Positions 4,486 to 7,616 of a stretch of DNA of 14,204 bases are shown here, one piece after another. Numbering within the stretch: the stretch's first letter is position 1; every line of letters starts with the position of its first letter. The notes under the pieces were generated by a model. That model did not search any database, was not told where the DNA came from, and saw nothing but the letters and a program-made list of their open reading frames with translations. The translations under genes were made by a program, and so were the position numbers. Source of the DNA: Thermoplasmata archaeon (GTDB lineage: Archaea > Thermoplasmatota > E2 > UBA9212); assembly GCA_013329495.1 (NCBI GenBank), contig DUKC01000120.1, forward strand, positions 411 to 14,614. The letters are read 5' to 3'.

Positions 4486-4515
4486 GTTTCAATCCCTTAT
4501 AGGTATTCTGTAGAC
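4486..4515 (-). CRISPR. Orphan CRISPR-type repeat, single copy
   Basis: On the minus strand this 30-nt unit begins GTCTACAGAA, has the core CCTATAAGG, and ends GGATTGAAAC. The 30-nt length, CCTATAAGG-like centre and terminal ATTGAAAC (the usual 8-nt 5' handle of Cas6-processed crRNA, 4486-4493) match the common family of repeats used by type I-B and type III systems in archaea and clostridia. No second copy is found 60-75 nt to either side or elsewhere in the window, so this is not a visible array. Its orientation is the same as the frameshifted cas6 gene about 0.9 kb upstream. It overlaps the last eight codons and stop codon of a 51-codon ORF. The chance of such a match is low but it is called by pattern only. 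Confidence 0.6.
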
Positions 4516-4644
4516 CATTTTTGGTTGCATTTTATCAATCTTATTGGAAACTTTCTTTATGTTCATTGCGTAGAATGATTCTAAATCTTTTCGAAGCGTT
4601 GTTTCAGGTTCTGTCTTAGCTATAAGCCCTACAAACTCACTCAC
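4489..4644 (-). CDS. Small ORF of unknown function ending in the CRISPR-type repeat
   Basis: A 51-codon ORF with GTG start at 4644, overlapping the hepT stop by 8 nt. The translation begins VSEFVGLIAKTEPETTLRKD and ends with VYRIPIRD, where the last eight codons and the stop lie inside the orphan repeat. It is hydrophilic, with mixed charges and purine-rich codons like the neighbouring genes, so it looks like real or formerly real coding sequence. I do not recognise a family. It could be a gene truncated by recombination at the repeat, a fragment of a longer protein, or a chance frame over the end of an operon. Confidence 0.35.
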   Translation of the reverse strand: MSEFVGLIAKTEPETTLRKDLESFYAMNIKKVSNKIDKMQPKMVYRIPIRD

Positions 4645-4936
4645 TCCTTAACCCCCCCAACTGATTTTTTGCATTCTCTATCAGCTCATCCAAACACTCT
4701 AAAAGAGTTGCCATTTCTCTTAACTCTTCTTCTTTGATGTTATAATATTCGTGAGCGATCAAATTCCTGAGAAAGACGAGCCTTTTGCTCTCGTTTAAGG
4801 TCTTTTTACTTATCATCTTATTCCCGTAGAGCAGTTTAAATATTTCTCCATACGTGGATGGAAAACCAAAGTTTTTCTCAGACACTACCAGCTCACCAAG
4901 TTCTATAGCAGAATTCACTGCCTGAGAACACTCCAT
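4637..4936 (-). CDS. hepT: HepT-like HEPN ribonuclease toxin, 5' end frame-disrupted
   Basis: The 99 aa from ATG 4936 are all-helical and hold the HEPN RX4HXY motif as RNLIAHEYY (R57, H62, Y64), the proposed RNase active site of HepT toxins (DUF86). A family member should start about 35 residues earlier. The same frame is open upstream to 5032 and encodes fitting helix sequence (KKKQKELLKQNTSDYLVF), but contains no start codon. The expected start is the ATG at 5045, overlapping the mntA stop as ATGA; it begins MIRLASIIS and is out of frame by one base. One extra nucleotide between 5045 and about 4980, a stretch with two A5 runs, therefore splits the gene. Tyr64 of the motif is the residue AMPylated by MntA-type antitoxins in this family. 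Either a decayed toxin, a shortened product from 4936, or a sequence error. Confidence 0.72.
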   Translation of the reverse strand: MECSQAVNSAIELGELVVSEKNFGFPSTYGEIFKLLYGNKMISKKTLNESKRLVFLRNLIAHEYYNIKEEELREMATLLECLDELIENAKNQLGGLRSE

Positions 4937-5041
4937 CGCAAGGGCATTGAAAACAAGGTAGTCTGATGTGTTCTGTTTGAGGAGCTCTTTTTGCTTTTTC
5001 TTTGTGCCTTTGCGTTCTAGATATGATCGAGGCTAGCCTTA

Positions 5042-5389
5042 TCATGCTAATATCCTCCTGCTCATTTTTTCATATAAATAAGACATCTCAAGATATTCTC
5101 TCAGCGTTTCCCACTTTATCTGCAGAAAATATTTTTCATTTCTCACAAACAACGTTTTCCCATATTTTAATACTTCGAACTTAATATATAAGGGTAACCT
5201 GGAAAAAGGAACTACATCCAATAGATTCGAGGAAAAATTAGAGATCTCCGCTTCTAAATTAGAATTTTTAAGTAAAACAGCAATATCCATATCAGAGAGT
5301 GATTTTTCCTTTCCCTTTGCATGTAAGCCGAACAGGATTATGGCCATTACATCGGGGTATTTCTTTAGCTCTTCCACTATTCTGTTCAT
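5042..5389 (-). CDS. mntA: MntA-like minimal nucleotidyltransferase (HepT antitoxin)
   Basis: About 115 aa from ATG 5389; an alternative GTG at 5401 would overlap the cas6 stop by 8 nt. This is the size and order of MNT-domain antitoxins encoded just upstream of HEPN toxins. The polymerase-beta motif normally written GSX10DXD appears as FGLHAKGKEKSLSDMDIAVL: the two aspartates (D33, D35) and the spacing are kept, but the serine after Gly21 is Leu22. A third acidic residue candidate is D58 in LLDVV. In characterised pairs the enzyme AMPylates a tyrosine of HepT to neutralise it; loss of the Ser may weaken nucleotide binding. The TGA stop overlaps an ATG at 5045, the expected hepT start. Confidence 0.75.
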   Translation of the reverse strand: MNRIVEELKKYPDVMAIILFGLHAKGKEKSLSDMDIAVLLKNSNLEAEISNFSSNLLDVVPFSRLPLYIKFEVLKYGKTLFVRNEKYFLQIKWETLREYLEMSYLYEKMSRRILA

Positions 5390-5393
5390 TGCT

Positions 5394-5831
5394 TTAATCA
5401 CTCAGCACCTCGAACATACCAAAACCCTGAGAGTTTTTTGAGCCTATCCCACAATCGTAGGCCAGCTTTAATAATCTTTTGTTTCCATCCAATACAAAGT
5501 TTCCTATCCCTCCTTTTATAATGTTATCCCTGTACTTCAAAACTTTTTCTTTTGGCTTTCCCATCAATCCTATCTTCAGTTTCCTTGCCCTCGCCTCTTT
5601 TTTATAAAAGGCTTTATGCTTCTTTCTCAAATTTTTGTCTATCAGATCTACAAATTCCTCTTCATAAGGAGAATAATAATAGGTTTTCTTCTTGCTTTCT
5701 TTTGTCATCAGGGTGCTATATACAACCACCGGGGAGAGCATCTTCACTTTCATTTTATCCCATATCTCTGGCTTTTGGTGAATCTTTATTTCTTCAATTG
5801 AAATGCTCTCCCCGTAAAGATTGAGGTCATT
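5394..5831 (-). pseudogene. cas6: cas6, C-terminal part (frameshifted)
   Basis: This frame begins at AAT 5831 and reads NDLNLYGESISIEEIKIHQK, then continues through KMLSPVVVYSTL to the stop at 5394. The first ATG is at 5753. It contains the C-terminal Cas6 ferredoxin-fold signatures: LSPVVV, a KKTYYYSPYEEEF segment, and the glycine-rich loop GIGSKNSQGFG near the end, which grips repeat RNA. It directly continues the Cas6 N-terminal part, which ends LANSMLKK in another frame. The break is at an A7 run (5830-5836): with one A fewer the two parts join as LKNDL. Cas6 cuts CRISPR precursor RNA within the repeat. No other cas gene is visible in the window. Confidence 0.78.
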
Positions 5832-6228
5832 TTTTTAACATCGAGTTTGCCAGTTCTTTTACAAATCTGTCTAAGAGGGAGGAGATGATCAGTTCGACGG
5901 GGGGAAAGAAACTTATGGTCCCATTATGGATCCTATATCTTCCATAAAGTTTTGAAAATGTAAACATCTTAAAACTTCTTTTTTCGAATGAAAACCCCCT
6001 GTTGTGAAGAAACTCCGCCAGGGAGGGAGTTATGTTATTATAGATGAAACTATAGATGAAACTTTGTATATAATAATTGTAATCTAAAGGGAGGGTTAAC
6101 ACTTCTCTCGGGATAAATCTTGAGGGTCGCTCTCTTCTTTTTACAATCTCTTTTTTGATATATATAATTATACCGTCCCCAGGCTTTATGAAATCGTGTA
6201 AGTTATACACTATACCAAATCTTTTCAA
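5827..6228 (-). pseudogene. cas6: cas6, N-terminal part with a non-Cas6 extension
   Basis: Open from a TTG at 6228 to a stop at 5827. Codons from about 6102 down give LTLPLDYNYYIQSFIYSFIY, then FLHNRGF and KMFTFSKL, typical of the Cas6 N-terminal RAMP domain. By analogy with Pyrococcus Cas6, Y59 (IYSF), H75 (FLHN) and K87 (FKMFTFS), counted from the TTG, could form the catalytic set. The first strand is better in another frame: codons 6130-6107 give ATLKIYPE, which joins to EVLTLPLDY if one base near 6106 is dropped, but no start codon precedes it. Residues 1-35 do not look like Cas6 and probably belong to the degraded ORF upstream. So the gene seems broken at its start, near 6106, and at 5830-5836. 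Joined, it would be near the usual 240 aa. Confidence 0.75.
6157..6170 (-). promoter_or_regulatory. Possible TATA element for cas6
   Basis: TAATTATATATATC on the minus strand. Initiation about 25 nt downstream would fall near 6137, a few nucleotides before the ATLKIYPE strand of Cas6 (6130), which fits leaderless transcription of an original cas6 start now lost. AT-rich chance matches are common. Confidence 0.3.
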
Positions 6229-6409
6229 ATTCCAGTCCCAATCGCCTTCATATATACCTGGATGATCCCGCCCAATTCCAAGTTCAATTAAATCTTTAAT
6301 TTTAGCCTTTGATTAATCCGTCTTCTTTTTTAATGCTTCACAAATCTTTTTTACATCGCTTTATGTTTTCATCCCTTAGCAAGTAGGCATAATTCCTATT
6401 TTTTGGCAT
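6229..6409 (-). pseudogene. Degraded ORF of unknown origin
   Basis: Broken reading frames between the tRNA and cas6. ATG 6409 opens a 23-residue frame (MPKNRNYAYLLRDENIKRCK...) ending at 6338. A second frame carries DVKKICEALKKKTD, a stop at 6313-6315, then SKAKIKDLIELGIGRDHPGI and GDWDWNLKRFGIVYNLHDF, continuing below 6229 as IKPGDGIIIYIKK. The alternate frame KEDGLIK would bridge the stop. The amino-acid texture is protein-like (Trp/Asp-rich, PGDG turn), so this looks like one gene with several frame lesions. I do not recognise the family. The LLRDENIK segment is faintly like the N-terminal region of some archaeal tyrosine integrases, which would suit a position beside a tRNA gene, but this is speculative. 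Confidence 0.35.
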
Positions 6410-6466
6410 AAGTAATTACTATCGCTCACAAGACGCGAGAGTTAGTTTTTCGAACTCAAATGCACA

Positions 6467-6541
6467 CGGGCCTGGGGGGATTTGAACCCCCGATTTGCAG
6501 CTTAGGAGGCTGCCGCCATATCCAAACTAGGCCACAGGCCC
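6467..6541 (-). tRNA. tRNA-Arg (anticodon CCT)
   Basis: 75 nt with a perfect 7-bp acceptor stem (GGGCCTG/CAGGCCC), D arm around GCCTAGTTTGG, a 5-bp anticodon stem (GCAGC/GCTGC) enclosing the loop CTCCTAA with anticodon CCT, a 5-nt variable loop AAATC, and a GGGGG/CCCCC T stem with loop TTCAAAT. The discriminator is G and CCA is not encoded, as in many archaea. It reads AGG codons as arginine. No intron. The cas6/mntA/hepT island lies immediately 3' of it on the same strand; no duplicate of the tRNA 3' end is seen in the window. Confidence 0.95.
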
Positions 6542-6696
6542 AACCCAATTATCTTTAAAGGCACGTATCAACGTGTTTCACTTCAAATCTATTTTTTTCC
6601 AGTATTTTATTCTTCTAGTATTTTATACAAATCGCTTTATATAACTATTTATCTGCATCTCCAAAGGCATCTTTCAAAAACCTCTTTTTCATCGAC

Positions 6697-6732: not shown

Positions 6733-7428
6733 ATGGAAAAAATTGAGAAGGTGCTTGGGGAAAAGATAGCCGGAGAAATAACCCTGTCTCCAAAACCATA
6801 CGCAACACTTAGAAAATGGCGTGAGACGTTTCAGTTCTCCCAAACAGAAGTTGCAAGGTACCTAGGGATTTTCCCTTCTGTTGTGTCTGATTACGAATCT
6901 GCAAGAAGGAAATCTCCTGGCGTCGAGGTCCTGAAGAGGACCATCGAGGCACTCATCGAGTTGGACAAGCGGAGAGGAGGGGTGGTTCTAAGTAAATACA
7001 CCTCAATGCTGCAGGTGAGTGGGGGGGTAATAGATATCAAAGAGTATTCTGTCGCAGTTCCAGCAAAAGATTTTGTGGAGAAAATAGATGCAAGACTGGT
7101 AGTTGAAGACGATATAGAAAAAAAGAATATTCATGGGTTCACTCTAATCGACTCAGTGAGGGCGATTTCCTCACTAACAAGCACAGAGTGCATAAAGCTG
7201 TATGGTTGGTCAACTCAAAGAGCTCTGATCTTCACAGGCATAACCTATGGCAGGTCACCCATGATTGCTATCAGAGTTCATCCCATGAAACCCTCTCTCG
7301 TCATTTACCATAAGCCAGAATCGTTAGACAAACTCGCTTGCAAGCTTGCAGAATGTGAAGAAATACCTCTGGCGATCACTAATTTGTCAATGGATGCTCT
7401 AAGGAAGAGGTTGGATAAGATAGGTTAA
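6733..7428 (+). CDS. HTH transcriptional regulator, COG1709-like
   Basis: A 231-aa protein. Residues about 25-78 form an XRE-type helix-turn-helix: LRKWRETFQFSQTEVARYLG is followed by the recognition helix PSVVSDYESARR and then SPGVEVLKRTIEALIELD. The C-terminal 140 residues form a mixed alpha/beta domain (IHGFTLIDSVRAISSLTS, YGWSTQRALIFTGITYGRSP, IRVHPMKPSLVIYHKP), which I associate with the conserved archaeal predicted regulators of COG1709. Ligand and targets are unknown. ATG 6733 follows the tandem TATA region at a leaderless-compatible spacing. A 57-codon zinc protein starts 14 nt after its stop, so the two are probably co-transcribed and may act together. Confidence 0.8.
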   Translation: MEKIEKVLGEKIAGEITLSPKPYATLRKWRETFQFSQTEVARYLGIFPSVVSDYESARRKSPGVEVLKRTIEALIELDKRRGGVVLSKYTSMLQVSGGVIDIKEYSVAVPAKDFVEKIDARLVVEDDIEKKNIHGFTLIDSVRAISSLTSTECIKLYGWSTQRALIFTGITYGRSPMIAIRVHPMKPSLVIYHKPESLDKLACKLAECEEIPLAITNLSMDALRKRLDKIG

Positions 7429-7442
7429 AGGACCTGTTAAAA

Positions 7443-7616
7443 ATGATGAAAGGATTATGCCAAATTTGCGGAAAACCTGCGAGGTTGTATACCTGCATGC
7501 TGTGTGGCAGACAAGTCTGCGGCTCATGTTTTGACAAGGCATATGGGATATGCATCCAGTGCAAGGAAGGAAAGCGGGGAAATAAACCAGATGAAAAGCC
7601 GAGCACGTTCCATTAG
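7443..7616 (+). CDS. Small four-CxxC zinc-binding protein
   Basis: 57 aa (MMKGLCQICGKPARLYTC...). Four CxxC pairs (C6/C9, C18/C21, C26/C29, C37/C40) follow the alternating spacing of a two-zinc cross-brace finger of the B-box/HIT-like kind. A basic, hydrophilic tail of about 17 residues follows. Such fingers usually bind proteins or nucleic acid. It starts 14 nt after the regulator gene stop with an AAGGA ribosome site at 7428-7432, so it is the second gene of a two-gene operon. A tandem ATG at 7446 is an alternative start. Function unknown. Confidence 0.75.
   Translation: MMKGLCQICGKPARLYTCMLCGRQVCGSCFDKAYGICIQCKEGKRGNKPDEKPSTFH

Follow-up and report, generated by a model that had tools for sequence, protein, structure and literature searches.

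A stretch of 14,204 nucleotides from a Thermoplasmata archaeon (contig DUKC01000120.1 of assembly GCA_013329495.1; hereafter the window) carries on its minus strand, behind a gene for tRNA-Arg, a string composed in order of cas6 in two frames, mntA, hepT, a 51-codon open reading frame (ORF) and a single 30-nt repeat of the kind found in clustered regularly interspaced short palindromic repeats (CRISPR) arrays (Table 1). This string is very probably the stump of a collapsed type I CRISPR-Cas locus, I-B-like by its Cas6 and its repeat, in which a MntA-HepT toxin-antitoxin (TA) pair was once nested behind cas6. The reading is carried by four observations, namely the identity of the repeat, the recurrence of cas6-mntA-hepT, a genome that holds both an intact version and an array built of repeats from this family, and another collapsed locus whose junction can be read. 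Two of the findings are new: the recurrent nesting of a protein TA pair behind cas6, and the survival of that pair here and in the second collapsed locus after the effector and adaptation genes had gone. A literature search of titles and the beginnings of abstracts returned no description of a HEPN-MNT pair behind cas6, which does not show its absence from print; an excerpt of one study describes some TA pairs near CRISPR loci, without a strong link (PMC2701414).

Table 1. Features of the string and the tRNA gene upstream of it, with positions in the window
Feature	Position	Strand	Remarks
tRNA-Arg(CCT)	6466..6542	(-)	ARAGORN, Rfam; upstream of the string
cas6, N-terminal part	5827..6228	(-)	PF21350, 9.6e-9; frame differs from that of the C-terminal part
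cas6, C-terminal part	5394..5753	(-)	PF01881, 2.4e-38
mntA, MNT antitoxin (MntA-like nucleotidyltransferase)	5042..5401	(-)	PF18765, 4e-14, also PF01909; open frame
hepT, HEPN toxin (HepT-like)	4637..5045	(-)	PF01934, 7.1e-14; frame-broken near 4980-4990
51-codon ORF	4489..4644	(-)	Final 8 codons are the repeat itself
60-nt pre-repeat segment	4516..4575	(-)	Conserved with the repeat between P0170 and P0171
Single CRISPR repeat	4486..4515	(-)	Ends ATTGAAAC; 28/30 identity to the G029 array repeat

All five elements of the string are present, as a sequence-only reading of this DNA had described, and its further statement that no other cas gene accompanies them is confirmed by Pfam on 8 frames and by eight custom cas profiles, which found none in the window. 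Cas6 similarity in the upstream cas6 ORF begins only at about residue 38-46, the frame breaks near 5830, and the C-terminal part is 69%, 74% and 70% identical to the Cas6 proteins of genomes G029, G007 and G041, respectively. HEPN-MNT pairs, labelled type VII TA systems, consist of HepT, an RNase toxin, and MntA, an antitoxin that acts by nucleotidylation and bears the motif GS...DxD. The pair in the window resembles them in that the MNT gene lies 5' of the HEPN gene with overlapping ends, and its HepT keeps the RX4H motif as RNLIAH, in which N, L, I, A and H are invariant and R nearly so among 11 aligned sequences. It differs in being preceded by cas6, in the hepT frame break, where the first 19 codons lie in a different frame from the remainder, and in a MntA motif that reads GL...DMD, the GS being kept by the lineage only (9 of 9 aligned relatives, including the 97%-identical P0121). 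An intact HepT relative (P0001, 135 aa) is 98% identical over 92% of the query, and relatives of HepT are found among solved structures (5yep/7aer, 6m6u/6m6v; E 1.2e-4); no solved structure matched the MntA relative P0121 at 0.001. The frame breaks appear to cluster in the string, because the other long frames of the window (e.g., 743, 678, 502, and 376 codons) are open.

Judged by its sequence, the 30-nt element is a genuine CRISPR repeat and not a chance resemblance, which is ruled out by the array copies in genomes of the same class and by reversed control patterns that scored zero. Its strand was assigned from the ATTGAAAC end together with the cas genes of G029. With 3 mismatches allowed, the genome that carries the window holds one copy (reversed pattern, 0), which upholds the earlier remark that there is no second one; 'one repeat' means here, and below, one at the stated mismatch limits. 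A degenerate form of the 30-mer, searched at the same tolerance in 80 genomes of the class, was present in four (60 copies in G029, nine in G037, and one each in G047 and G000; reversed control, 0), and its 23-nt core, sought across 389 phylum genomes with a tolerance of 2 mismatches, was present in seven, as arrays in G029 and G037 and as single copies in G000, G033, G047, G086, and G210. The repeat thus forms arrays in related genomes, the absence of which would have told against the sequence-only reading, and an array of the same family is found in CR_Bin_179, described below. Read on the plus strand, the repeat gives a sub-threshold match to the Rfam model CRISPR-DR2 (28.8 vs 37 bits, E 0.013). 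The 8-mer GTTTCAAT was uninformative alone, since it occurs 41 times forward and 32 times in reverse in the own genome, vs 36 and 32 for its reversed pattern, and a hairpin signal in the repeat was dropped when shuffled sequences folded equally well. Among the single copies, that of G047 (L065:9462-9491) lies on a 12-kb contig without cas genes by the eight-profile search, that of G033 is on L144 (651 bases examined), and that of G210 (L146/L134:13541) stands alone, at the tolerances searched, after a complete cas6-to-cas2 set.

The reference for what may have been lost is provided by G029, of the same class, where cas6-cas8b-cas7-cas5-cas3-cas4-cas1-cas2 and a 60-copy array form a complete type I-B locus (L025; cas8b and cas1 were checked, and the remaining genes named by order and inspection). 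In the window, repeat and Cas6 appear to be cognate, because G029 couples a 69%-identical Cas6 with a repeat identical at 28 of 30 positions. Of the features of such a locus, Cas6 (broken) and the cognate repeat are present in the window, whereas the window has no counterpart of the effector and adaptation genes or of the array (one repeat), and no Cas1 was found in the genome (82% complete); G029 in turn has no mntA-hepT between cas6 and cas8b. Genome-wide searches were limited to Cas1, Cas7, and RAMP proteins, Cas8b, Cas5, and Cas3 not being searched on that scale, and gave no match to Cas1 (PF01867; positive in nine of 14 control genomes), none to Cas7 (PF05107; a narrow search, positive in three of 14), and none to RAMP (PF03787; a weak negative, positive in four of 14 and blind to the window Cas6 itself). 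A lone cas6 was also seen in G007 (L023:2667-3395), where an intact 242-codon gene stands between apparent metabolic-enzyme genes and has after it a short run of codons resembling the start of cas8b; this is perhaps another remnant, and no repeat within 10 mismatches was found in the 15-kb stretch around it.

The order cas6-mntA-hepT is, on comparison of the loci that share it, not accidental. Among 38 hepT loci obtained by a contig scan of named genomes, cas6 similarity lies 5' of hepT in four, namely L068 (UBA186), L070 (Methanophagales CR_Bin_179), L072 (Methanophagales AUK217), and L103, so that the question raised earlier of whether cas6 adjoins mntA-hepT in relatives is answered in the affirmative by other genomes. 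The total is five of 41 when the window is added together with L139 and L140, which are without cas6. For these counts L141 and L075, both of length 81,936, were taken as one contig and G086 and UBA186 as one genome (the same junction sequence is found in L147), none being counted twice. In the window, UBA186, and CR_Bin_179, no gap separates cas6 from mntA, the two genes abutting or overlapping; in AUK217 cas6 is nearby, with an ATPase gene between. In L103, counted as cas6-linked, a 26-codon cas6 start is fused to the middle of hepT near the contig end. All five linked loci fall within the 12 whose hepT is at least 66% identical to P0001 (L102 and L103 show a partial hepT, and L073 starts inside mntA and cannot inform on cas6), and hepT of this kind is rare, being found in five of 389 genomes of the phylum at 1e-10. 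On trees of 36 MntA and 35 HepT sequences, from which L103 was excluded and in which four rows bear the cas6-linked label, the label is clustered, with two changes on each tree against a shuffled mean of 3.9 (0 and 3 of 500 shuffles were as low), a pattern that near relatives alone can produce. Selection on mntA and hepT is seen among four of the cas6-linked loci, where their ratio of nonsynonymous to synonymous change (pN/pS) is 0.16-0.23, with synonymous change near saturation in most pairs; the C-terminal part of cas6 gives comparable ratios of 0.17-0.25. Beside the more distant hepT loci, cas profiles found only Cas3-like helicase frames, at L093:16939-18582 and L105:5937-7754, several kb from their mntA-hepT pairs and with no recognised cas6.

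An intact version of the arrangement is represented by CR_Bin_179, in which the end of a full-length cas6 overlaps mntA, and hepT, a 579-codon gene and Cas7-, Cas5-, Cas3-, and Cas4-type genes follow. The 579-codon gene occupies the cas8 position and had no NCBIfam match at 0.001. The sole Cas1 found in this genome is encoded with cas2 ahead of a 36-repeat array, whose repeat, GTTCGTAGCCTACCTATAAGGGATTGAAA, has its last 19 nt, ending GATTGAAA, in common with positions 11-29 of the window repeat. The two contigs concerned are probably parts of one locus, because an ATPase gene breaks off at the end of each. In the stretches of L070 and L072 that were examined, where effector genes follow hepT, nothing matched the window repeat within 9 mismatches, a limit that would have caught the L070 genome's own repeat (that of L072 is not known). 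The repeat thus seems not to be intrinsic to the cas6-mntA-hepT unit. Both loci have, between hepT and the effector genes, a conserved frame of 44-45 codons (EWNWDDVERI(V/I)VVLKDGKQIELSEE...), which is by eye unlike the 51-codon ORF of the window.

The junction that would be expected of a collapse can be read in UBA186. Here less than the last third of cas6 is left, as a C-terminal piece, mntA and hepT are open, and hepT is followed by 11 codons, MIEAIKEIGEY, equivalent to the start of cas8b (MIEAIKEIGDY in G029), that run into the repeat at or within GAATAC. The 23-nt 3' part of this repeat is identical to that of the window, and the core occurs once in G086, taken as the same genome. After the repeat come one 36-nt spacer and a degenerate repeat matching at 20 of 30 positions (in 2 of 300 mononucleotide shuffles a score of 19 or more was reached anywhere in 125 positions). 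No Cas1 was found in the UBA186 genome. The locus reads as the product of a deletion with one end point at the beginning of cas8b and the other where the array ends.

We infer that the same collapse happened in the window, where the left junction is not readable. In the ancestral operon, MntA-HepT would have stood behind cas6 and ahead of the effector genes, with cas1-cas2 and an array closing the locus; a deletion would then have taken out everything from hepT to the array, and the spacers were probably lost through recombination among repeats, so that one repeat and a piece of leader were left. This order of events is reconstructed from the compared loci. The TA pair would have outlasted the effector and adaptation genes, as expected where loss of the pair is costly, and would now itself be decaying in the window genome, as the two frame breaks and the GL motif suggest. 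The orphan repeat is most simply a deletion remnant, because no repeat was found behind hepT in L070 and L072, where effector genes come next, and the search for a target of a CreA-like guide was negative. An earlier alternative, in which the repeat was the tail of a lost array beside a defence-island remnant, is thus the better reading, to which we add that the TA pair probably belonged to the cas locus instead of merely adjoining it.

The segment that precedes the repeat bears on the same question. P0170 is 94% identical to the 51-codon ORF over all 51 residues and P0171 67% identical over 88% of the query, and in the translation of the pre-repeat segment and repeat, FYA(M/T)NIKKVSN(K/E)IDKMQPKM-VYRIPIRD, 27 of 28 residues are the same in P0170 and P0171, their upstream parts being different. 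The ORF is unlikely to be a real gene: the repeat supplies its final 8 codons, and the likeness of P0171 is confined to the stretch adjoining the repeat. No Pfam family was found in P0170, and no homologue of the ORF in the fetched hepT loci by tblastn at 0.001. Among the listed blastn matches of the pre-repeat segment plus repeat outside the own genome, with the G029, G037, and G047 loci excluded, the repeat alone was matched. The 60-nt segment is probably a leader remnant, because a leader would be expected to show up as just such a conserved block beside the first repeat, and the layout of the window would then be hepT, an unassigned piece, a leader remnant, and one repeat.

Several points weigh against this reconstruction. 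The junction in the window is without a recognisable start of cas8b, the first 23 codons of the 51-codon ORF match P0170 only, and the conservation of 27 of 28 residues in P0171 exceeds what a simple scar would need, unless the segment is a leader. The frame breaks lie in A-rich runs and could be sequencing errors, and the C-terminal part of cas6 in the window, with a pN/pS of 0.17-0.24, does not point to long neglect. Since the genome is 82% complete, the absent cas genes could sit in gaps. The effector genes of CR_Bin_179 differ from the G029 set. The pair also occurs alone, 36 of the 41 hepT loci being without cas6 (one of them, L073, begins inside mntA), nor is cas6 seen in L069 (1.8 kb of upstream sequence) or L071 (3.3 kb), the sister loci of L070 and L072, which are linked. 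The HepT tree has well-supported branches that require the cas6-linked label to change at least twice; on that tree the link was therefore gained or lost more than once, which is not the picture of a single inheritance without loss or regain.

The last two of these facts, the many loci without cas6 and the label changes on the HepT tree, are also what would be seen if a mobile MntA-HepT pair had landed by chance in a defence island, beside a cas6 and the remnant of an array to which it had no relation. We regard this as quite unlikely, in view of the abutting or overlapping cas6 and mntA in three of the linked genomes and their proximity in a fourth, the position of the CR_Bin_179 pair inside a cas operon, and the clustering of the linked label on both trees, with the caveat on near relatives given above. 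The remaining explanations concern the repeat. The sequence-only reading had proposed that Cas6 has a cutting site within its own TA mRNA, and the repeat could be a working control element of this kind, at which Cas6 cuts the 3' part of the cas6-mntA-hepT mRNA, or from which a CreA-like guide represses the operon. Such a role would agree with the preserved ATTGAAAC end, the 23 nt shared with UBA186, the presence of the repeat behind hepT in two lineages, and the conserved block in front of it. It is nonetheless not supported and seems to us highly improbable: where effector genes follow hepT, in L070 and L072, the repeat is absent from the stretches examined, in UBA186 it sits at the break point of cas8b, and cas6 is broken in both of the genomes where the repeat does lie behind hepT. 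Furthermore, repeat RNA folds no better than shuffled sequences (127 of 200 shuffles were at least as good). An exact-match scan with an assumed guide seed, formed by positions 1-5 and 7-11 after the repeat, found no site in the operon, weaker pairing not being covered; the 14.6-kb contig has one match elsewhere, within frame 175-2211, and the 20-kb stretch of UBA186 has no match. A CreA-like guide was rejected on this negative scan. Least probable of all is a minimal live array of leader and one repeat, still able to gain spacers with Cas1-Cas2 supplied from elsewhere; the pre-repeat block does behave like a conserved leader end, and G210 combines a complete cas6-to-cas2 set with a single repeat behind cas2 at the tolerances searched, but no Cas1 was found in the 82%-complete genome and cas6 is broken.

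The collapsed-locus reading invites comparison with CreTA, which in the type I-B system of Haloarcula hispanica is situated between cas6 and cas8 (as outlined in PMC8501985) and in which a toxic RNA, CreT, is paired with a degenerate-repeat RNA, CreA, that serves Cascade as its guide (as summarised in PMC9458426). The likeness is that of a TA system within a cas operon: in L070 mntA-hepT separates cas6 from the effector genes, and in UBA186 it precedes the start of cas8b. In CreTA the toxin is a small RNA that sequesters a rare tRNA, and the RNA antitoxin has degenerate repeats together with a seed match upstream of the toxin. The differences are that the recognised toxin and antitoxin of the window are both proteins (a separate small RNA was not sought), that the window repeat is not degenerate and yields no exact seed match in the window or the UBA186 operon, and that the repeat is absent beside hepT in L070 and L072. 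The pair is not a CreTA, yet by analogy it could work likewise as a guard against operon loss. We infer, with considerable reservation and as a rather improbable proposal, that MntA-HepT behind cas6 may be a protein-based guard of type I CRISPR-Cas, an all-protein counterpart of CreTA. HepT would be kept silent for as long as functional Cas6 and effector are being produced; if the cas operon were lost or inhibited, by deletion or by an anti-CRISPR, HepT would be free to cleave RNA and arrest the cell, and the pair would for that reason outlive the locus it guards, as in the window and UBA186. CreTA provides the precedent that a nested RNA TA system can hold CRISPR loci in genomes, and a protein TA pair in the same slot in other archaea would suggest that cas operons came to be guarded on more than one occasion and by different means. 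Collapsed loci of this kind offer a readable picture of how a CRISPR locus dies and of what remains.

A repeat outside an array is also a feature of the solitary repeat units and RNA anti-CRISPRs encoded in viral genomes (outlined in PMC10651486). Pattern scans found no viral relative of the repeat core, hepT, or cas6, and searches for an origin in a phage, virus, or plasmid gave no match in its favour, the plasmid HepT matches being 25-27% identical in four records. An integrated element at tRNA-Arg seems unlikely, there being no exact att-like 13-mer duplicate of the tRNA elsewhere on the contig and no Pfam family in the short frames 6341-6409 and 6100-6312. Short frames between tRNA-Arg and cas6 (window 6312-6410, MPKNRNYAYLLRDENIKR...) presumably resemble the start of an archaeal tyrosine recombinase, a likeness to which Pfam gave no support. 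The G+C content is 0.36 in the string (window 4486-6420) vs 0.41 to its left and 0.44 to its right. On the far side of the tRNA gene, positions 6733-7616 encode a 231-codon helix-turn-helix regulator and, after it, a RING-finger-like zinc protein of 57 codons (PF14445 at 1.1e-4, just over the cut-off).

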